Of a DNA stretch of 56,055 nt, positions 6,844 through 47,075 are shown piece after piece. Numbering within the stretch: the first letter of the stretch is position 1; the number at the start of each line of letters is the position of its first letter. Origin of the DNA: Clostridia bacterium. GTDB taxonomy: Bacteria; Bacillota; Clostridia; TANB77; UBA1234. Both the position numbers and the translations under genes were made by a program. The notes beneath the pieces were generated by a model. The model saw only the letters and a program-made list of their open reading frames with translations. It was not told the origin of the DNA and did no database searches. Location of the stretch: the NCBI GenBank assembly GCA_017521465.1, contig JAFXCN010000014.1, positions 1 to 56,055 on the forward strand. The letters run 5' to 3'.

Positions 6844-6881
6844 AAAAAACCGTAGTGCCAAGCGGCACTACGGTTTTTTGT
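6844..6881. terminator. Bidirectional rho-independent terminator
   Basis: ACCGTAGTGCC and GGCACTACGGT form a perfect 11-bp stem with an AAGC loop, flanked by A6 and T6. On the minus strand it would end the rpsU-yqeY transcript. The rest of the 6647-7004 gap holds the GC-rich repeat and no coding region that I can support. Confidence 0.8.
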
Positions 6882-7004
6882 ATTCATCACCCAAAGCGTC
6901 CGCTTTGTCGGTTTTAGCACCTTACTTTTCAGCAGGTTGCTGTGGAGTCTTTGAGCCGATTCTCTCGTCCACTCTTGATAATATTTTTATTCACTTTTTA
7001 TTTA

Positions 7005-20639: not shown

Positions 20640-21872
20640 CTATAAATTATAATAATCTTTATATAATTTTCTTGCTGTTTCTGGACTATCGTTTCCTTCT
20701 GCATTTTTTATTGGAGCAAAGCATTCTTCTCTTTTATATCTTAACACACCTAAGCTCTCAAGTCTATCAAAAGCATCAAAAATAAATGTTTCAAATTTGT
20801 ATGCATTAGGTTCTTCTGCTATAACCATTTCTCCACTTTCGTTCATATAATTACATTTTTTAAATGCACTATGATATGGTAATTTTTCTTTTGCAATTCC
20901 TTCTATAACATCTATATTGAATAAGTTCATCATTATATGTGCTTCACCATATAAAAATTCATTATTCTCATCAACCGCTTCTGCCATTTCATCTGTTATT
21001 TCTGTATATTCAACAACAGATGGTTTTGCATTTCTTTTACACAATATACCAACACGCTCTTTAGCAGAATTTTTAACAATAGATACTGATGTAGCTTTCA
21101 TATTGTTTTCTGCTGAATATCCAACCAAAAGCGGATCAACTAATTTCGCAAGTGGATTATCAACTGCACAACTAAATATCCATTCAATGCCATTTGCTTG
21201 CATATCTGCTAAAACGCCATTTCGAACCATTGCTTCAAATAATCCACCATGTCCATCGGCCGCTTCTTTTATTAACCCATTTTCGCCTATAATTACTTTT
21301 CCATTTGTATCTATCATTGGAAACTCACCTTGTTTAAAGAAAATCTTAATTCCATCTTTATATCCAAAGTAATCATGTTCTTCAAAAAACTTTACCGTAT
21401 CATCATTATTTTCTTTACTTGTCATTATATACCATGGAATGATAACTCCATATTTATCTTTAGCTGTTTTTAATTTATCACAGAATAGTTCAAACAAACT
21501 TTTGTGAGAATCAAGTCCCATATCAAAAGTTCCTTTAGGACCATTGTGTCCAAGTCTTGTGCCTTGTCCACCAGCAACCATAACAACTGCATATTTTCCA
21601 CTAGCAATTATTTCATCACCTTTTGATAAATAATTTTCTCTTTCATCTTCTGACAACTTATTAGAATCAACATATGAAATTGGTTCTATAATATCATTAC
21701 CTGTTGTAGGTTTTGTTTTTGTCTTTTCATATAGTTCAGCAATCTTTTCAAAATCAATATTTAAAACTTGATTTAAAAGTTCTTCTTTTTTATCATCTGC
21801 TAATCTTTCATAAGCACTTAAAACATGAGTTTGACCATATTTTTCTAAAATTTCTTTAGCATTATTTATCAT
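20640..21872 (-). CDS. UDP-sugar pyrophosphorylase (UTP--glucose-1-phosphate / UDPGP family)
   Basis: The 410-residue enzyme belongs to the eukaryotic-type UDPGP family, which joins UTP and a hexose-1-phosphate (glucose, or N-acetylglucosamine/galactosamine). It has the nucleotide loop VMVAGGQGTRLG near residue 86, then GPKGTFDMGL, HGGLFEAM near 206 and CAVDNPLAK near 232. I chose ATG 21872 because GGAGG lies 8 bases before it; the longer frame adds 20 residues of untranslated leader. It probably feeds envelope polysaccharides. Substrate specificity cannot be read from sequence alone. Confidence 0.85.
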   Translation of the reverse strand: MINNAKEILEKYGQTHVLSAYERLADDKKEELLNQVLNIDFEKIAELYEKTKTKPTTGNDIIEPISYVDSNKLSEDERENYLSKGDEIIASGKYAVVMVAGGQGTRLGHNGPKGTFDMGLDSHKSLFELFCDKLKTAKDKYGVIIPWYIMTSKENNDDTVKFFEEHDYFGYKDGIKIFFKQGEFPMIDTNGKVIIGENGLIKEAADGHGGLFEAMVRNGVLADMQANGIEWIFSCAVDNPLAKLVDPLLVGYSAENNMKATSVSIVKNSAKERVGILCKRNAKPSVVEYTEITDEMAEAVDENNEFLYGEAHIMMNLFNIDVIEGIAKEKLPYHSAFKKCNYMNESGEMVIAEEPNAYKFETFIFDAFDRLESLGVLRYKREECFAPIKNAEGNDSPETARKLYKDYYNL

Positions 21873-21973
21873 AAAATATCCTCCATAAAATTTATCTAAA
21901 ATTATATTTTCATAATATATAATTATCCCCAAAAAGTCAATAATATGTACTTGTGTTTGTTGCTACACCAATT

Positions 21974-22016
21974 TTTTTTCTTTATTATTTATTCAATTTT
22001 CTTTATTCTTTTTATT
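21974..22016. repeat. A/T-rich repeat flanking the GC-rich island, left copy
   Basis: TTTATTATTTATTC and TTTCTTTATTCTTT here match the stretch at 23643-23682 in the same orientation. The two copies bracket the cassette island of about 1.6 kb. Reverse-oriented relatives are at 13024 and 53412. Confidence 0.45.
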
Positions 22017-22017
22017 T

Positions 22018-22103
22018 GTGTCCGCTGAAAAGTGTTTGCTGAGTGAATTTTTGTGTCCGACAGAAAGTGATTGCTGGGTGAATTTTTGTGTCCGACAGAA
22101 AGT
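22018..22103. repeat. 35-bp tandem repeat after cassette 1
   Basis: Two complete 35-bp units (22018-22052, 22053-22087) start with GTGTCCG and contain GAGTGAATTTTT or GGGTGAATTTTT; a third partial unit covers 22088-22103. A related unit and a half lies at 22732-22780, just beyond the terminator of cassette 2. Confidence 0.8.
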
Positions 22104-22119
22104 ATACAAAAAGGCATAA

Positions 22120-22143
22120 AAAAGGGCGCCTCACGGCGCCTCG
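22120..22143 (-). terminator. Terminator of cassette 1
   Basis: Two GGCGCC blocks around a 4-base loop form a strong stem followed by T6 on the minus strand. The TGA stop of the gene lies in the loop. Confidence 0.75.
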
Positions 22144-22514
22144 TAGTGCAAGGTGTATGTATACTCCTTGCTTTTTGTCCACCCTCTTTTGAGAAGCTCT
22201 TGTTCCATAAGGGGATACTTTATTTTGGGAATTTCTTCCCAAAGTTTCCTTGTCCCTACTCTCAAGTAAGTTTTTTGCCCTTCAAAGGCAAAATCCTGGA
22301 AGGACAATGTCACCCTTGGCAAAGCGGGTTTCTGCCCCTCTAATGGGTTCCATGCCAGGAGGGTGAGCTTATACTCTGCTAACTCTACTGCGACTAGAGC
22401 GCAGATCTTATCAGCAATCGCGCTGATAATTTTTTCTACCCGAATTTCTTCGAGTGTTTTGGGGATCTGCTCTTCTTTCCGAATGATATTTCTGAAGATA
22501 TTCATAAATTTCAT
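22131..22514 (-). CDS. Cassette 1: GC-rich ORFan, unknown function
   Basis: The 127-residue protein begins MKFMNIFRNIIRKEEQIPKT; residues about 20-45 are helical and the C-terminal 60 residues are basic and aromatic (LRVGTRKLWEEIPKIKYPLM). There is no signal peptide or recognisable motif. Base and codon use are about balanced, very unlike the neighbouring AT-rich genes. GGCGGAGGTG precedes the ATG. The gene has its own promoter about 180 bp upstream and its own terminator overlapping the stop. It looks like a transferred cassette. Confidence 0.65.
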   Translation of the reverse strand: MKFMNIFRNIIRKEEQIPKTLEEIRVEKIISAIADKICALVAVELAEYKLTLLAWNPLEGQKPALPRVTLSFQDFAFEGQKTYLRVGTRKLWEEIPKIKYPLMEQELLKRGWTKSKEYTYTLHYEAP

Positions 22515-22696
22515 GCTGCACCTCCGCCCAGTTAGTGCGCTCTCATCAAAGTAGGAAACATAGTACTGCTTCTAGCTATGGTGGCACTACCCAAGCGGCA
22601 GTACCCAACCATAGGTATTCTCTACATGTGCGTTTTGCTACTGGTATTATAACACTACATATAGAGCCGAACTAAAGCATAGATTCGTTATATATA

Positions 22697-22725
22697 TTTT
22701 ACCATATTTACATAATTTTTTCAAG
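22697..22725 (-). promoter_or_regulatory. Promoter of cassette 1
   Basis: TTGAAA and TAAAAT on the minus strand have a 17-bp spacer. The segment AATTATGTAAATATG between them is identical in the cassette 2 promoter. A 180-bp leader with hairpins (for example GGTGGCACTACC nearby) separates it from the gene. Confidence 0.65.
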
Positions 22726-22731
22726 TGCTTG

Positions 22732-22780
22732 TCTGCTACAAAATGTTCGCTGAGTGAACTTTTGTGTCTGACGAAAAATG
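22732..22780. repeat. Further copy of the 35-bp cassette repeat
   Basis: The stretch contains CGCTGAGTGAACTTTTGTGT, matching CTGAGTGAATTTTTGTGT at 22038. It lies between the cassette 2 terminator and the cassette 1 promoter, so repeats separate the two units. Confidence 0.7.
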
Positions 22781-22792
22781 CATAAAGAAAGA

Positions 22793-22815
22793 GGGGCACA
22801 CAGCGTGTGCCCCTC
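22793..22815 (-). terminator. Terminator of cassette 2
   Basis: GAGGGGCACAC and GTGTGCCCCTC form an 11-bp perfect stem, followed by TTTCTTTAT on the minus strand. Confidence 0.8.
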
Positions 22816-22828
22816 AGCAACTCCTTTC

Positions 22829-23314
22829 TTATTTGCTCAGACTCTTTATGACCCACATGCGCAGGTCAAAGAAGAATAGCCCATTCTGGCTAGCGTCTTC
22901 ACGCCAGCCCTTTTCATGGAGGAACCGCCGTACCAGCGGTTCCTCCAGATTAACCTCGGTCTTTCCGACCAGAGTCTCAGCATAATACATCGATCTGATC
23001 GCGTGATCGTAGATGACCTCGGAAAGGCCATCTCCGTTTCTTACGCCCTGGCGGATCATCTTGCCCGCCTTTGCCCAGAACCGAGCAAAGTCCAGACAAA
23101 AATCGTACATCATCGGCACTGCTTCGTCGACGGCGCATCCCACCGCAGTGGTTTCGTCGCAGACTTCGAAGCCCTCTTCCAAAATAGCCTTCTTGGCTTT
23201 AGCGTCGGCTTCCACCATAAGGCGATACATTGCCTCAACAGCAGCAGTATCGTCGATGGTGTCGATGGTGTCGATGGTGTCGTTGGTACCGAACAGATTC
23301 TTATTGCTTTCCAT
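22829..23314 (-). CDS. Cassette 2: GC-rich ORFan, unknown function
   Basis: The 161-residue acidic, mainly helical protein has an N-terminal DTIDTIDTIDDT repeat encoded by a 9-bp tandem repeat (23252-23287). Later segments (EAMYRLMVEADAKAKKAILE, RRFLHEKGWRED) are helical; three Cys occur at about 52, 59 and 73. No family is recognised. Codon use is GC-rich, unlike neighbours. AAGGAGGAGCGACC precedes the ATG. It has its own promoter and terminator, as cassette 1 does. Confidence 0.65.
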   Translation of the reverse strand: MESNKNLFGTNDTIDTIDTIDDTAAVEAMYRLMVEADAKAKKAILEEGFEVCDETTAVGCAVDEAVPMMYDFCLDFARFWAKAGKMIRQGVRNGDGLSEVIYDHAIRSMYYAETLVGKTEVNLEEPLVRRFLHEKGWREDASQNGLFFFDLRMWVIKSLSK

Positions 23315-23475
23315 GGTCGCTCCTCCTTGCCCTTTGGGCGGTCCTAGACTAGATAAGAATAGTAACGAGTTGCTTCTGTTATGACTTTAGTTGTCACAAC
23401 TTTTCTGTTCAACGAATTCTCCTTTTAAAGGATATATACGCGACAGAAAGCCAGAAACAATTGGCTATTACTATT

Positions 23476-23504
23476 ATTTTAGCATATTTACATAATTTTA
23501 GCAA
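23476..23504 (-). promoter_or_regulatory. Promoter of cassette 2
   Basis: TTGCTA and TAAAAT on the minus strand have a 17-bp spacer identical over AATTATGTAAATATG to the cassette 1 promoter. The 160-bp leader to the gene has no ORF that I can support. Confidence 0.6.
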
Positions 23505-23516
23505 GAGTATCTAGCC

Positions 23517-23600
23517 ATTGCAACCATTTACGTCGGAGATACTCTGTTCACCCTCCGGGTGTACATTCTATGTCGGACGTAAATTGTTTCTCATTCCATC
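23517..23600. repeat. Mobile-looking hairpin repeat, copy 1
   Basis: TTTACGTC and GACGTAAA at the ends, GGAGATA / TATGTC inside and TTCACCC / GGGTGTA at the centre form a long imperfect palindrome. A copy about 90% identical, in the same orientation, lies at 36230-36305. It is beside cassette 2. No ORF is present. Confidence 0.75.
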
Positions 23601-23609
23601 ATAGAATAT

Positions 23610-23682
23610 AAAATAATAAAGAAGATTGAACACTGAAAAAAATTTTATTTATTATTTATTCCCTATTCTTTATTCTTTATTT
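23610..23682. repeat. A/T-rich repeat flanking the GC-rich island, right copy
   Basis: TTATTTATTATTTATTC and TATTCTTTATTCTTTATT match 21974-22016 in direct orientation. It lies just before the radical SAM gene start. Confidence 0.45.
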
Positions 23683-23710
23683 GTTATATAATCCTTCTTG
23701 GAGGTGTACT

Positions 23711-24586
23711 ATGGGCTGCAATTTGTGTCCTTTTAATTGTAATGTTGATAGAATTGATACTTTAGGCAGATGTAAGTGCGGTATTTTGCCTAAACTTGCT
23801 CTTGCTTCTATCCACAAATGGGAAGAGCCTTGTATTAGCGGCGAAAACGGCTCAGGAACGGTTTTCTTTTCCGGATGCAATCTTAGTTGCATATTTTGTC
23901 AAAATCACGAAATTAGCCATTCTGGTTTCGGGAAAGAGGTTTCTATCGAAAGACTTGCAGATATATTTTTAGAATTACAAGATAAGAATGTAAATAATAT
24001 AAATCTCGTTTCTCCTACTCCATATGTACCTCAAATAATAAAAGCTTTAGATATTGCTAAAACAAATGGATTAAAAATTCCTGTTGTTTATAATACAAAT
24101 TCATATGAGAATGTAGAAACAATAAAAAGATTAAATGGATATGTGGATATTTATTTGCCAGATTTAAAATATTTTGATGATACTGTCGCATTAGAATATT
24201 CAAAGATTCCGAATTATTTTGATACAGCTTCAAAAGCTATTTTAGAAATGTTATCTCAAGTACCAAATAATGTTTTTAATGATAACGGAATATTGCAAAA
24301 AGGAATAATAGTTAGGCATCTAATTCTACCTGGTAATGTAACACAAACTAAAAAGATTTTAAATTGGATTAAAAACAATTTGCCAGAAGATATTTATATA
24401 AGCATCATGGCGCAATATTTCCCAACCTATAAAGCAAAAGAACATAATTTATTAAATAGAAAAATTTCAAAAAAAGAATACGAAATGGTTTTAAATATGC
24501 TTGGAGATTTTGAAAACGGATATATACAAGAACTGTCTGATTGTGAAGAGGAATATGTGCCGAAGTTTGATTTGTCAGGAGTATAA
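23711..24586 (+). CDS. Radical SAM protein of the PflA-like (PflX) family
   Basis: The 291-residue protein has the radical SAM cluster motif CNLSCIFCQN near residue 58, and an N-terminal Cys set (CNLCPFNCNVD...GRCKCG) that could hold another metal site. VVYNTNSYE and DIYLPDLKYFD are typical of the PflA-like family (pyruvate formate-lyase activase-related, COG1313). I chose ATG 23711, 8 bases after GGAGGTG, instead of an in-frame upstream start. No glycyl-radical enzyme is adjacent, so the substrate is unknown. Confidence 0.88.
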   Translation: MGCNLCPFNCNVDRIDTLGRCKCGILPKLALASIHKWEEPCISGENGSGTVFFSGCNLSCIFCQNHEISHSGFGKEVSIERLADIFLELQDKNVNNINLVSPTPYVPQIIKALDIAKTNGLKIPVVYNTNSYENVETIKRLNGYVDIYLPDLKYFDDTVALEYSKIPNYFDTASKAILEMLSQVPNNVFNDNGILQKGIIVRHLILPGNVTQTKKILNWIKNNLPEDIYISIMAQYFPTYKAKEHNLLNRKISKKEYEMVLNMLGDFENGYIQELSDCEEEYVPKFDLSGV

Positions 24587-31228: not shown

Positions 31229-31633
31229 TCATCCGGCGGCAATTATCATTGCCACCAAGACTTCCAGTTCCTTCATTATTGCCATAACCTCCTCCTTCTG
31301 ATGCTGTTTTTCCCACTCTATCCGCTTTTCTTTCCTCTCGTGTTCAGGAAGAGAAGCGATATAATAAGGGGATACATACGGATTCTCCATATTTTCCAAC
31401 ACCAAACGGTTTTCTCTGGCTTTAAGCCAGATACCTTTTTTGTCTTCACGCCCAACGATAGCTTCGAAGTCAGCATACCCATAGTAAAAAGCATTCTCCA
31501 ATTCGAACAAGGAGTCCAACTCCTCTGGGGCAACATCCACCCGGTTTGTAATAATGATCCGGACAGCAACCCGAATAGCTGCATACAGATTCACCTTTAC
31601 TTCTTCCAGATTCACCATCATAGGATTCATCAT
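31229..31633 (-). CDS. Cassette 3: GC-rich ORFan, unknown function
   Basis: The 134-residue protein (MMNPMMVNLEEVKVNLYAAI at the start) is charged and mainly helical, with a Glu/Lys-rich stretch near 95-115 (ERKEKRIEWEKQHQKEEV) and a hydrophobic end (VLVAMIIAAG). I chose ATG 31633 because AAGGAGGG lies 6 bases upstream, inside the longer frame. GC content is well above the neighbours. It has a perfect sigma-A promoter and its own terminator, the same layout as cassettes 1 and 2, but no sequence similarity to them that I see. Confidence 0.65.
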   Translation of the reverse strand: MMNPMMVNLEEVKVNLYAAIRVAVRIIITNRVDVAPEELDSLFELENAFYYGYADFEAIVGREDKKGIWLKARENRLVLENMENPYVSPYYIASLPEHERKEKRIEWEKQHQKEEVMAIMKELEVLVAMIIAAG

Positions 31634-31681: not shown

Positions 31682-31710
31682 ATTATACCACAATATAACC
31701 CACACTTCAA
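31682..31710 (-). promoter_or_regulatory. Promoter of cassette 3
   Basis: TTGAAG and a perfect TATAAT on the minus strand are 17 bp apart, about 50 bp upstream of the gene. Confidence 0.7.
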
Positions 31711-36217: not shown

Positions 36218-36229
36218 CCACTTACCCAT

Positions 36230-36305
36230 TCGCAACAATTTACGTCGGACATACTCTGTTCACCCTTCGGGTGTACATTCTATGTCAGACGTAAATCGTT
36301 TCTCT
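36230..36305. repeat. Mobile-looking hairpin repeat, copy 2
   Basis: This is a near copy of 23517-23600 in the same orientation (TTTACGTCGGACATACTCTG, CACCCTTCGGGTGTACATTC, GACGTAAA). It is palindromic. It has no neighbouring cassette, so the element occurs independently. Confidence 0.75.
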
Positions 36306-37376: not shown

Positions 37377-40244
37377 CTACTTAAACAATCCTTTTCTCTT
37401 ACCCGAATCATTTCCAGATGGATATATTTTTTGGCAAATTTGATCAATTGCACTTCTAAGTTGTACCGAATAATTTTTGTACACAATTTTATCTTTTGCC
37501 ACATCCTCCGTATACCTAGCGTAATCTTCTATAGTAAGTGGAACTGTTATATATGATTTTATAACTTCAAATTCTTCAGTATATGTCATTTGAGGATCAT
37601 TATAATAAGCTAAGCCTACCTCTACTATTTTTTTAGGTGTAAAAGAACTTTTTACATACTTATTAATAATAACATTCAATTTTGACCAATCTATACTTCT
37701 GTTTTTAAATTCTCTTAGGAATGCTGTTGTTTCTTGTAATTTTATCAAATCCATATCTTGTACAATATAAATTTCTGAAGCTTGTTCAAAATATTCAAGT
37801 GGAGTAGTAAAATCACAATCGATTACAAGTAAATTACAAGTTTTCTTTATAGTATCAACAATTGTTTTATGCTTAAAATTTTTTCTATTTTCACCTAATC
37901 CAGGTAACGAAGTATATACTGCTAATCGTTTTCCTTTTTCCACAGCAACAGGCGTATTACGACCTTCACTTAAGTTTTTAATACAATCAGTTGCAATTTG
38001 TATTTTCCTTGAATCACTCTTATTATATAGATAATATAAACCTTTTGATTTAGTCATATCTAACAAAGCTGTTTGAATCCCTTTTTCAGATGCACAATTA
38101 GCGATTGCATTTGCTAAAAATGTTGTTCCGGCTTTATTCGTTCCTACTAAGGCTACAACTTTTTTATAATCACTTGGTAAAGCATATGTCTTAGCATCAA
38201 AATTACTTTGTAAAGGATCATCATCACCATCTTGTGATATTAGTGCTGAGCTTGCCGTAGGCGTGTTTACAACAGTAGCACTTGCAACAGCAGCTGCTGC
38301 AGCTCTATCGGCTGCAATTTTTTGTCTTAATGCTTCTTGTTCCCTCGCAAGTCTTTCAGCCTCTTCTTTCGCTTTTTGTTCTGCCAAAGCTCTTCTTCTT
38401 AATTCCTCTTGTTCTTGAGCTTGTTTTTGCGCTTGTTCTTCTTTCGCTTTTTGTTCTGCTAAAGCTCTTCTTCTTAATTCTTCTTGTTCTTGAGCTTGTT
38501 TTTGTGCTTGTTCTTCTTTCGCTTTTTGTTCTGCTAGTGCCCTTCTTCTTAGCTCTTCTTGTTCTCTTCTTTGAGCTTCTTCTTTTTCTTTATCCGCATT
38601 ATTGCTTTGCAATGCTGATAAATTTATTTCCACTTCTGCATTACTTTCTTGTTTTTTTGTTTGCGGTTGTTGAGCTTGTTTTTGAGCTTCTTCTCTAGCT
38701 TTTTGTTCTGCTAAAGCTCTTCTTCTTAACTCTTCTTGCTCTCTTCTTTGAGCTTCTTCTTTTTCTTTATCTACATTATTAGCTTGTAATGCCGATAGAT
38801 CTATCTCTACTTCTGTAGTACTTATTGGTTGCTGTTGAGCTTGTTTTTGAGCTTCTTCTCTAGCTTTTTGTTCTGTTAGTGCCCTTCTTCTTAGTTCTTC
38901 TTGTTCTCTTCTTTGCGCTTCTTCTCTAGCTTTTTGTTCTGCTAGTGCCCTTCTTCTTAGCTCTTCTTGTTCTCTTCTTTGCGCTTCTTCTTTTTCTTTA
39001 TCTGCATTATTAACTTGTAATGCTGACAAATCTATCTCTATTTCTGTATTACTTTCTTGTTTTTTTGCTTGCTGTTGGGCTTCTTCTCTAGCTTTTTGCT
39101 CTGCTAACGCTCGTTTTCTTAATTCTTCTTGCTCCTGTTCTTTTCTTAATGCTTCTTCTCTAGCTTTCTGATCTGCTAACGCTTTTTGTCTTAATTCCTC
39201 ATTTGCTCTTTCTAATCGTTCAGCAGCTTCTTTTGCCATTCTAGCTTCTTCTTCTTTACGTTTTAATTGTGCTTCATCAGCAGCAATTCTTTCTTCAGCT
39301 TCTCTCTTTAATCTTTCTGCTTGTTCTCGAGCTTCTCTTTGTGATTCTTCTCTTAATCTTCTAGCTTCTTCCTCTGCTTTTTGCGCTGCCAATCTAGCTT
39401 TTTGTTGCTCTTGTTCTTGCATTCTAGAACTTTCTTCTATTACTTGATTTGAACTTTGATTTTCTTTCTTAGAACTTAAGAAATTTAATATTCCTTTTTT
39501 CTGATTATTTTTTTGCATATTTGGCTTACGTACAGTCTTTTTACTCATTCCAACATTAAACATTGGCGCATATCTAGGATCTTTAGCAATAACTTCTGCA
39601 ACGTTTGGTAAATGCATACATAATCCAACCGCAATAATCATTAATTGCTTTTTAGTATATTGTTCTTCTATTCTTTCAAAACTAGGAACATATTGATCCG
39701 TATTTTCACCTAATTTTTCATAATGTTTTAATATATTGTTAAATTGAGCTTCATCAACTTCGTCATCGGCCAATGATTGACCACTTGTCGGAGCATTAGT
39801 TGCAGGGTTCATATCTAAATATTCCCTAGCTTCTTTTTTAGTCCTAGGCTCTTTTATAACGTCACAAAGCGATGTTATATTTCTATCATTTCCTAGTAAT
39901 ATGCTATATACTCCCAAATTATAAAATCTAGCCATCAACGAATCTGATTTTGTTCTTCTATCTGATCCAATAAATGCTATTGAAGAATTTTGCGCTTCAT
40001 CTGTAAGTACATCCATGTTTGAAAATATAACTTTGTCTATTTCTTCAATTGTAACAGCTTTAATTGGTTCTAATTCTTCACTTACAACTATTCTATCATA
40101 GCTTGAATCTTTTCTTACTTCTTCCAATAATGCTCTAAAATAAAAGACATCTTTATATTCTAATTGTTCACCATATGTTTGAAAATATTTATCTGCTACA
40201 CTTTTAGATGTTTGAGCATTACCTATTGCAAAAAGTACTTTCAT
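37377..40244 (-). CDS. TadZ/ParA-like ATPase with receiver-like and long coiled-coil regions
   Basis: The 955-residue protein has three parts. Residues 1-140 look like a receiver-like domain (MKVLFAIGNAQTSKSVADKY). Residues about 265-655 are a charged Glu/Gln/Arg coiled coil with repeated REQEELRRRALAEQKA units and three inserts of the form EIDLSALQxNN near 399, 477 and 534. Residues 690-955 form a SIMIBI-type ATPase with VALVGTNKAGTTFLAN in place of the KGGxGKTT loop and a LVIDCDF Walker B. Degenerate loops are typical of TadZ/CpaE, which place pilus machinery at the pole. It is 15 bp upstream of ireB. The actual partner is unknown. Confidence 0.72.
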   Translation of the reverse strand: MKVLFAIGNAQTSKSVADKYFQTYGEQLEYKDVFYFRALLEEVRKDSSYDRIVVSEELEPIKAVTIEEIDKVIFSNMDVLTDEAQNSSIAFIGSDRRTKSDSLMARFYNLGVYSILLGNDRNITSLCDVIKEPRTKKEAREYLDMNPATNAPTSGQSLADDEVDEAQFNNILKHYEKLGENTDQYVPSFERIEEQYTKKQLMIIAVGLCMHLPNVAEVIAKDPRYAPMFNVGMSKKTVRKPNMQKNNQKKGILNFLSSKKENQSSNQVIEESSRMQEQEQQKARLAAQKAEEEARRLREESQREAREQAERLKREAEERIAADEAQLKRKEEEARMAKEAAERLERANEELRQKALADQKAREEALRKEQEQEELRKRALAEQKAREEAQQQAKKQESNTEIEIDLSALQVNNADKEKEEAQRREQEELRRRALAEQKAREEAQRREQEELRRRALTEQKAREEAQKQAQQQPISTTEVEIDLSALQANNVDKEKEEAQRREQEELRRRALAEQKAREEAQKQAQQPQTKKQESNAEVEINLSALQSNNADKEKEEAQRREQEELRRRALAEQKAKEEQAQKQAQEQEELRRRALAEQKAKEEQAQKQAQEQEELRRRALAEQKAKEEAERLAREQEALRQKIAADRAAAAAVASATVVNTPTASSALISQDGDDDPLQSNFDAKTYALPSDYKKVVALVGTNKAGTTFLANAIANCASEKGIQTALLDMTKSKGLYYLYNKSDSRKIQIATDCIKNLSEGRNTPVAVEKGKRLAVYTSLPGLGENRKNFKHKTIVDTIKKTCNLLVIDCDFTTPLEYFEQASEIYIVQDMDLIKLQETTAFLREFKNRSIDWSKLNVIINKYVKSSFTPKKIVEVGLAYYNDPQMTYTEEFEVIKSYITVPLTIEDYARYTEDVAKDKIVYKNYSVQLRSAIDQICQKIYPSGNDSGKRKGLFK

Positions 40245-46944: not shown

Positions 46945-47075
46945 AAATTCTCTCTAAAAAGCTTACCAAGTTAGCTGACGGGTTCGGAATAGAAAGTTTC
47001 CTACTATAAATAGATACACCCCAAAAACGGTTCCTCGGCTCTCAAAACGAGATTCAGCCTTTATTAAACTATGCA
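46945..47075 (-). promoter_or_regulatory. ydaO-type c-di-AMP riboswitch
   Basis: Read on the minus strand, GAGCCGAGGAACCG, TTTTTGGGGTGTAT, CTTTCTATTCCGAACCCG and TCAGCTAACTTGGTAAGC occur in the order of the ydaO/yuaA aptamer (GGGAACC, GGGGUG, CCGAACCCGUCAGCUAACCUCGUAAGC). The terminator at 46915 fits the usual OFF-switch. It controls two glycosyltransferases. The identification is by consensus recall, not by a covariance search. Confidence 0.8.

Follow-up and report, generated by a model that had tools for sequence, protein, structure and literature searches.

Two orphan genes of a Clostridia bacterium as probable members of a promoter-sharing class of single-gene cassettes

Among described kinds of element, the genes considered here come closest to minimal mobile elements (Saunders and Snyder 2002, as cited in PMC4269198), in which, as far as that citing account presents it, related genomes have different acquired genes within the same gap between conserved genes, and neither a transposase nor an integrase accompanies them. 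The cassettes of these elements in Neisseria are, in the same account, mostly restriction systems, unlike those described below. Swapping between conserved flanks was seen in relatives of our source genome at three loci, as for minimal mobile elements; the present units differ, however, in that most consist of a single short gene under a conserved promoter of its own and followed by its own terminator, and in that they occur at many loci and in arrays. Phage morons are single genes of foreign composition, with their own promoter and terminator, inserted between conserved genes. The units in the window, i.e., the whole stretch of 56,055 nucleotides that was analysed, likewise have their own promoter and terminator and a differing base composition, but they are chromosomal, lie between family-conserved genes and not in a prophage, and have no viral matches. 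Integron gene cassettes, too, are single genes without known function that form arrays, whereas the units here have promoters of their own and neither an integrase nor attC sites. Acinetobacter dif modules (PMC10132070) are small gene modules as well, and the core of the promoter element discussed below resembles the XerD arm of their sites; here, in contrast, the half-site lies within a promoter, with no XerC arm and no inverted pair of sites.

We consider that the two orphan genes of the window are probably acquired single-gene cassettes of a promoter-sharing class found across an order of gut Clostridia. The combination of a lineage-wide promoter with a self-contained single-gene form is new, and a pool of exchangeable single genes in gut Clostridia is apparently undescribed; our literature search found nothing relevant on the promoter spacer, nor on such cassettes. 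If the assignment is right, a short promoter pattern provides a handle for listing a large pool of exchangeable genes in uncultured gut Clostridia, and both the spread of orphan genes together with their expression signals and the control of cassettes by a host regulator or host Xer protein become testable.

Two orphan genes between conserved neighbours

The source genome comprises 26 contigs and 1.40 Mb, is 98% complete and has about 31% GC; the window is a single contig of it. Counts for this genome are based on the stretches around repeats and on sample stretches with about 281 kb of readable sequence, N being read in some. The genes and their predicted signals are:

20640-21932, minus strand: UDPGP gene, conserved flanking neighbour
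22125-22140, minus strand (22140-22125): gene 1 intrinsic terminator
22131-22514, minus strand: gene 1 (P0001), orphan ORF of 127 aa, candidate cassette gene
22515-22689, minus strand: gene 1 leader with Shine-Dalgarno sequence (SD), fold z -2.1 against shuffles
22696-22724, minus strand (22724-22696): gene 1 promoter TTGAAAAAATTATGTAAATATGGTAAAAT, TTGAAA-17-TAAAAT
22791-22815, minus strand (22815-22791): gene 2 intrinsic terminator
22829-23314, minus strand: gene 2 (P0002), orphan ORF of 161 aa, candidate cassette gene
23315-23469, minus strand: gene 2 leader, GCCC-AAA-GGGC hairpin directly 5' of the SD, fold z -2.3
23476-23504, minus strand (23504-23476): gene 2 promoter TTGCTAAAATTATGTAAATATGCTAAAAT, TTGCTA-17-TAAAAT
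23681-24586, plus strand: radical SAM gene, conserved flanking neighbour
31229-31633, minus strand: another GC-rich single gene, the third in the window, 134 aa, GC3 0.50

The original prediction had pointed to two adjacent ORFs with GC-balanced codons, outside known families, each equipped with a 17-bp-spaced promoter of shared sequence, an SD and a terminator, and all of these features were found for both genes. GC is 0.43 in the 127-aa gene and 0.52 in the 161-aa gene, and GC3 is 0.51 and 0.64, respectively, against a median of 0.18 in the sampled genome. Both promoters are predicted to be of the sigma-A type, with 17-bp spacing and a TG preceding the -10 element, and they have the 15-mer AATTATGTAAATATG in common. 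The promoter of the third GC-rich gene lies at 31710, with TTACATAA immediately upstream of it. Terminator-like sites number 7 in the region against 1.5 expected, and promoter-like sites 11 against 4.2. The leaders of about 155-175 nt fold somewhat better than their shuffled counterparts and matched no RNA family in Rfam. A small C-rich/AAA/G-rich hairpin directly before the SD was seen in the gene 2 leader and also in those of L009, L013, L097 and L098, and no Rfam family matches it.

Neither protein gave anything usable in Pfam, PHROGs, NCBIfam or the PDB sequences, or had relatives among 385 genomes of the order. No relative worth naming was obtained for P0001 from phages and the 85,000-species contig set or for P0002 from phages and plasmids. 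The predicted structure of P0002 is useless (pLDDT 49); that of P0001 has pLDDT 75, and its top fold matches have E values of 0.54 (PDB) and 0.012 (an unnamed entry of a viral library). As neither protein has a known relative, no donor can be named. Each unit in the window thus holds one orphan gene, and a mobility gene of its own is absent.

The UDPGP and radical SAM genes on either side are conserved across the family, and a comparison of this locus in relatives, proposed with the original prediction, found the two genes absent from the junction in 9/9 family members in which the fetched stretch has both flanks, all of them from other genera. The flanking genes are adjacent and in the same direction in five of these (G003, G005, G007, G008, G012) and head to head, 0.12 kb apart, in G010, while the remaining three (G001, G006, G009) have between them what we take, from reading the sequences, to be an aspartyl-tRNA synthetase gene with or without a formate-THF ligase gene. 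The stretches from G002, G004 and G011 do not show both flanking genes and are outside the nine. What is seen at the window's own junction is therefore presence against absence or core genes, and, because the relatives belong to other genera and no same-genus genome appeared in the searches, loss elsewhere is formally possible instead of gain here.

Several further features of these stretches were recorded. The radical SAM gene appears split into two frames in G001, G002, G004 and G006 (L049-L054), possibly by frameshifts or a programmed event. Elsewhere in the window, a 955-aa ORF (37377-40244, minus strand) has an AT skew of -0.5 to -0.6 across 38001-39500, which suggests that a segment of the protein is repetitive or strongly biased, and there are a SAM riboswitch at 6881-6984 and a c-di-AMP riboswitch at 46945-47069.

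A promoter shared across the order

With one mismatch allowed, the pattern TTGNNNNNNTTATGTAAATNTGNTANAAT has matches in 107/191 genomes of the order; the reversed pattern matched in 0 genomes and a shuffled-spacer control, which was one base shorter than intended and had one fixed base fewer, in 16. The exact promoter form was found in at least 112 stretches of named genomes, nearly all labelled as Clostridia or Clostridium MAGs, with a single Treponema and a single Erysipelotrichaceae; the promoter matches in named genomes are nearly all from gut Clostridia. There was no exact match in 2.9 million viral contigs. Conservation stops at the -35 and -10 elements across 82 promoters, and for that reason the idea of a wider, fixed and mobile promoter module was rejected.

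The 8-mer TTATGTAA/TTACATAA also overlies core promoters at different phases, in one orientation or the other. In the source genome, TTATGTAA lies upstream of 8/27 GC3-rich genes versus 11/264 ordinary genes (p=7e-5) and ranks first among 280 anagrams upstream of the GC3-rich genes. That it is a generally over-represented word was rejected, 47 occurrences being seen versus 37.8 expected. Its shifting position and variable orientation would suit an operator for a common regulator, as judged from its placing in the sequence. The promoter is not private to the cassette class, as it also precedes the core genes radA, NAD kinase, PGK and EF-P.

Of 97 genes picked solely for having the promoter, 89 have a higher GC3 than the genes around them (medians 0.333 versus 0.178, p=6e-17). 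The first 71 of them have a median length of 137 aa, and a crude scan detected a terminator for 42. Pfam matches are few, with 27 families, nearly all in one member only; matches in PADLOC among the 97 proteins are few as well, so that no general defence role is claimed. A common small domain with pairwise identities of 19-39%, for which no Pfam name was seen, occurs in cassettes of different species (L085, L124, L159, L173, L185).

Exchange of cassettes in relatives

Three swap loci are clear and independent. At the first, the match between L013 and L097 extends over -1483 to +29 on the left (83%) and resumes at +347/+294 on the right (91%); the ORFs between these matching flanks are unrelated, and L098 has a third ORF there. 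At the second, L139 matches L184 and L212 as far as about +109, and the match resumes at about +435/+420/+462 (92%); the ORF of L139 differs from theirs. The third has a single 62-aa cassette in L178 and several units together with a 512-aa gene in L216. A systematic pass gave 15 pairs with the same flanks and different cassettes, which represent few independent loci because some contigs occur twice. The right-hand ends fall together with an adjacent gene or promoter and may thus only mark where selection resumes. Homologous cassettes were also found in unrelated surroundings, where the match runs from the -35 element onward (L128/L176, 0 to 838; L131/L167, 0 to 671), and tandem arrays such as that of L198 contain repeated copies of promoter and leader, separated by different ORFs.

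The proposal that the genes of the window resemble mobile gene cassettes is partly supported by these data. It is right in kind for the class, given the swaps at three loci and the cassettes in unrelated surroundings; mobility of the window's own genes we only infer, because the searches gave no same-genus genome and no relative of either protein. Each of the two genes has the anatomy of a complete transcription unit of promoter, leader, SD, ORF and terminator within the gap between the UDPGP and radical SAM genes, and as acquired cassettes they would have arrived in the same way as the swapped cassettes of relatives. Members of the class share a sigma-A promoter with TTATGTAA, a putative operator for a common regulator, in or beside the -35/-10 region, and their proteins are probably accessory. 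Since each unit has its own signals, we propose that it could be expressed in any intergenic position. Exchange would most likely use the homology of the flanks, together with the shared promoter and leader, for ordinary recombination.

A different route would be provided by the host Xer system, with the TTATGTAAAT core as a XerD half-site at which host Xer moves one-site cassette circles to give integron-like arrays. We regard this route as unlikely, and likewise the wider idea of a XerD-arm-like sequence within the promoter that serves at once as a platform for expression and as the site of recombination, with host Xer shuffling cassettes across the order without an integrase of their own. 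The TTATGTAAAT core does resemble TTATGTTAAAT, the XerD arm of pdif (PMC10132070), the sole tyrosine recombinase recognised in the genome is a Xer protein, in the tandem arrays every cassette has one promoter site, these sites being in direct orientation, and the right junction of L139/L184/L212 starts with AAATTATGTT. However, a XerC arm is absent upstream of the core, the sequence read has no dif-like or palindromic site, and single cassettes occur without a second site alongside. Furthermore, the core is found in both orientations and at shifting positions within promoters, and the shared part extends to +109 in one of the swaps. The Xer gene itself (G000:C21:15958-16470, L024) is the only tyrosine recombinase gene found, where one would expect both a XerC and a XerD; directly downstream of it lies an R35 repeat array.

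The genes could also be old, fast-evolving residents under one regulator, with a composition due to selection and not to transfer. The operator-like character of the element and its presence before core genes would agree with such a regulon, which we nevertheless hold to be rather improbable: conserved flanks enclose different genes in different relatives, and cassettes related to one another occupy unrelated loci. Moreover, GC3 is low in core genes for which strong expression is to be expected (EF-Tu 0.20, EF-G 0.22, S7 and S12 0.19, EF-P 0.13), so that the raised GC3 of the class is not accounted for by expression level.

Dispersed repeats around the two genes

The repeats at the locus are:

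21976-22011, plus strand: A/T-rich heptad-type repeat, left copy
22019-22105, plus strand: R35 repeat array, REP-like bystander
22730-22780, plus strand: R35 repeat between the two candidate cassettes, bystander
23516-23595, no strand: HP palindromic dispersed repeat, fold z -5.0
23643-23678, plus strand: A/T-rich heptad-type repeat, right copy

The original prediction took the 35-bp repeat as separating or following the units and the A/T-rich direct repeats as bracketing the island. The repeats are indeed at these positions, but both belong to dispersed families, so that neither brackets the island specifically, and as cassette ends both were rejected. The two A/T-rich copies, of 36 nt and 89% identical, are members of a common TATTCTT heptad family found in many places. 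R35 forms period-35 arrays at about 16 places in the genome, and the stretches read contain 43 units, distributed over 14 places that are mostly intergenic. A Y1_Tnp gene (E 8.8e-10) lies between inverted R35 arrays in L022, which is the layout described for RAYT genes flanked by inverted REP repeats (PMC2817692). The 35-bp repeat is accordingly a dispersed, RAYT-linked, REP-like family and a bystander rather than a cassette end.

R35 resembles REPs (PMC2817692, PMC3733652) in being a dispersed intergenic repeat, in the Y1_Tnp gene between inverted copies and in the CGTC that adjoins a small stem. The length of 35 nt lies within the 20-40 nt of palindromic REP units. R35 differs from REPs in its head-to-tail arrays of 35-nt units and in the weak palindrome of the single unit, whose fold is not better than that of shuffled sequences (z 0.1 and -0.2). 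PMC3733652 does not report any RAYT with CGTC-type repeats on its flanks, whereas one is present here. Transposition of GC-rich genes by a RAYT that uses the 35-bp arrays as ends is very improbable. Arrays do adjoin GC-rich genes in the window and in L017, L027, L029 and L030, but most arrays have no GC-rich gene and most cassettes no array at one end; in addition, R35 is tied to the RAYT gene itself, and the cassettes of relatives have promoter-defined ends and no R35.

That the units are integron cassettes with unrecognised attC sites can be given almost no weight. They are single genes in array-like order with few known relatives, but each has its own promoter and a 3' end without an attC-like repeat. 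As the original prediction had it, neither an integrase nor an attC-like site was found: the 98% complete genome has no integron or phage integrase, its one Phage_integrase-family protein being the Xer. An assembly chimera or contamination, which a sharp composition change within a metagenome assembly might suggest, is scarcely credible, since host repeats lie between and beside both genes and many GC-rich single genes with the same element are surrounded by native DNA, both on other contigs and in numerous independent genomes.

Three observations concern the repeats themselves. HP, which the original prediction does not mention, contains a 67-nt palindrome (23522-23588) and has further copies at 36227-36304 and on other contigs. 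Two RAYT-like Y1_Tnp genes (L022:3602-4375; L233) are each flanked on both sides by their own, different repeat family; in PMC2817692, RAYTs with abundant REPs were found only in gammaproteobacterial relatives. Finally, CTATTCAC is the most over-represented 8-mer in the sample of the source genome (53 occurrences versus 22.5 expected) and probably belongs to the TATTCTT heptad repeat family.
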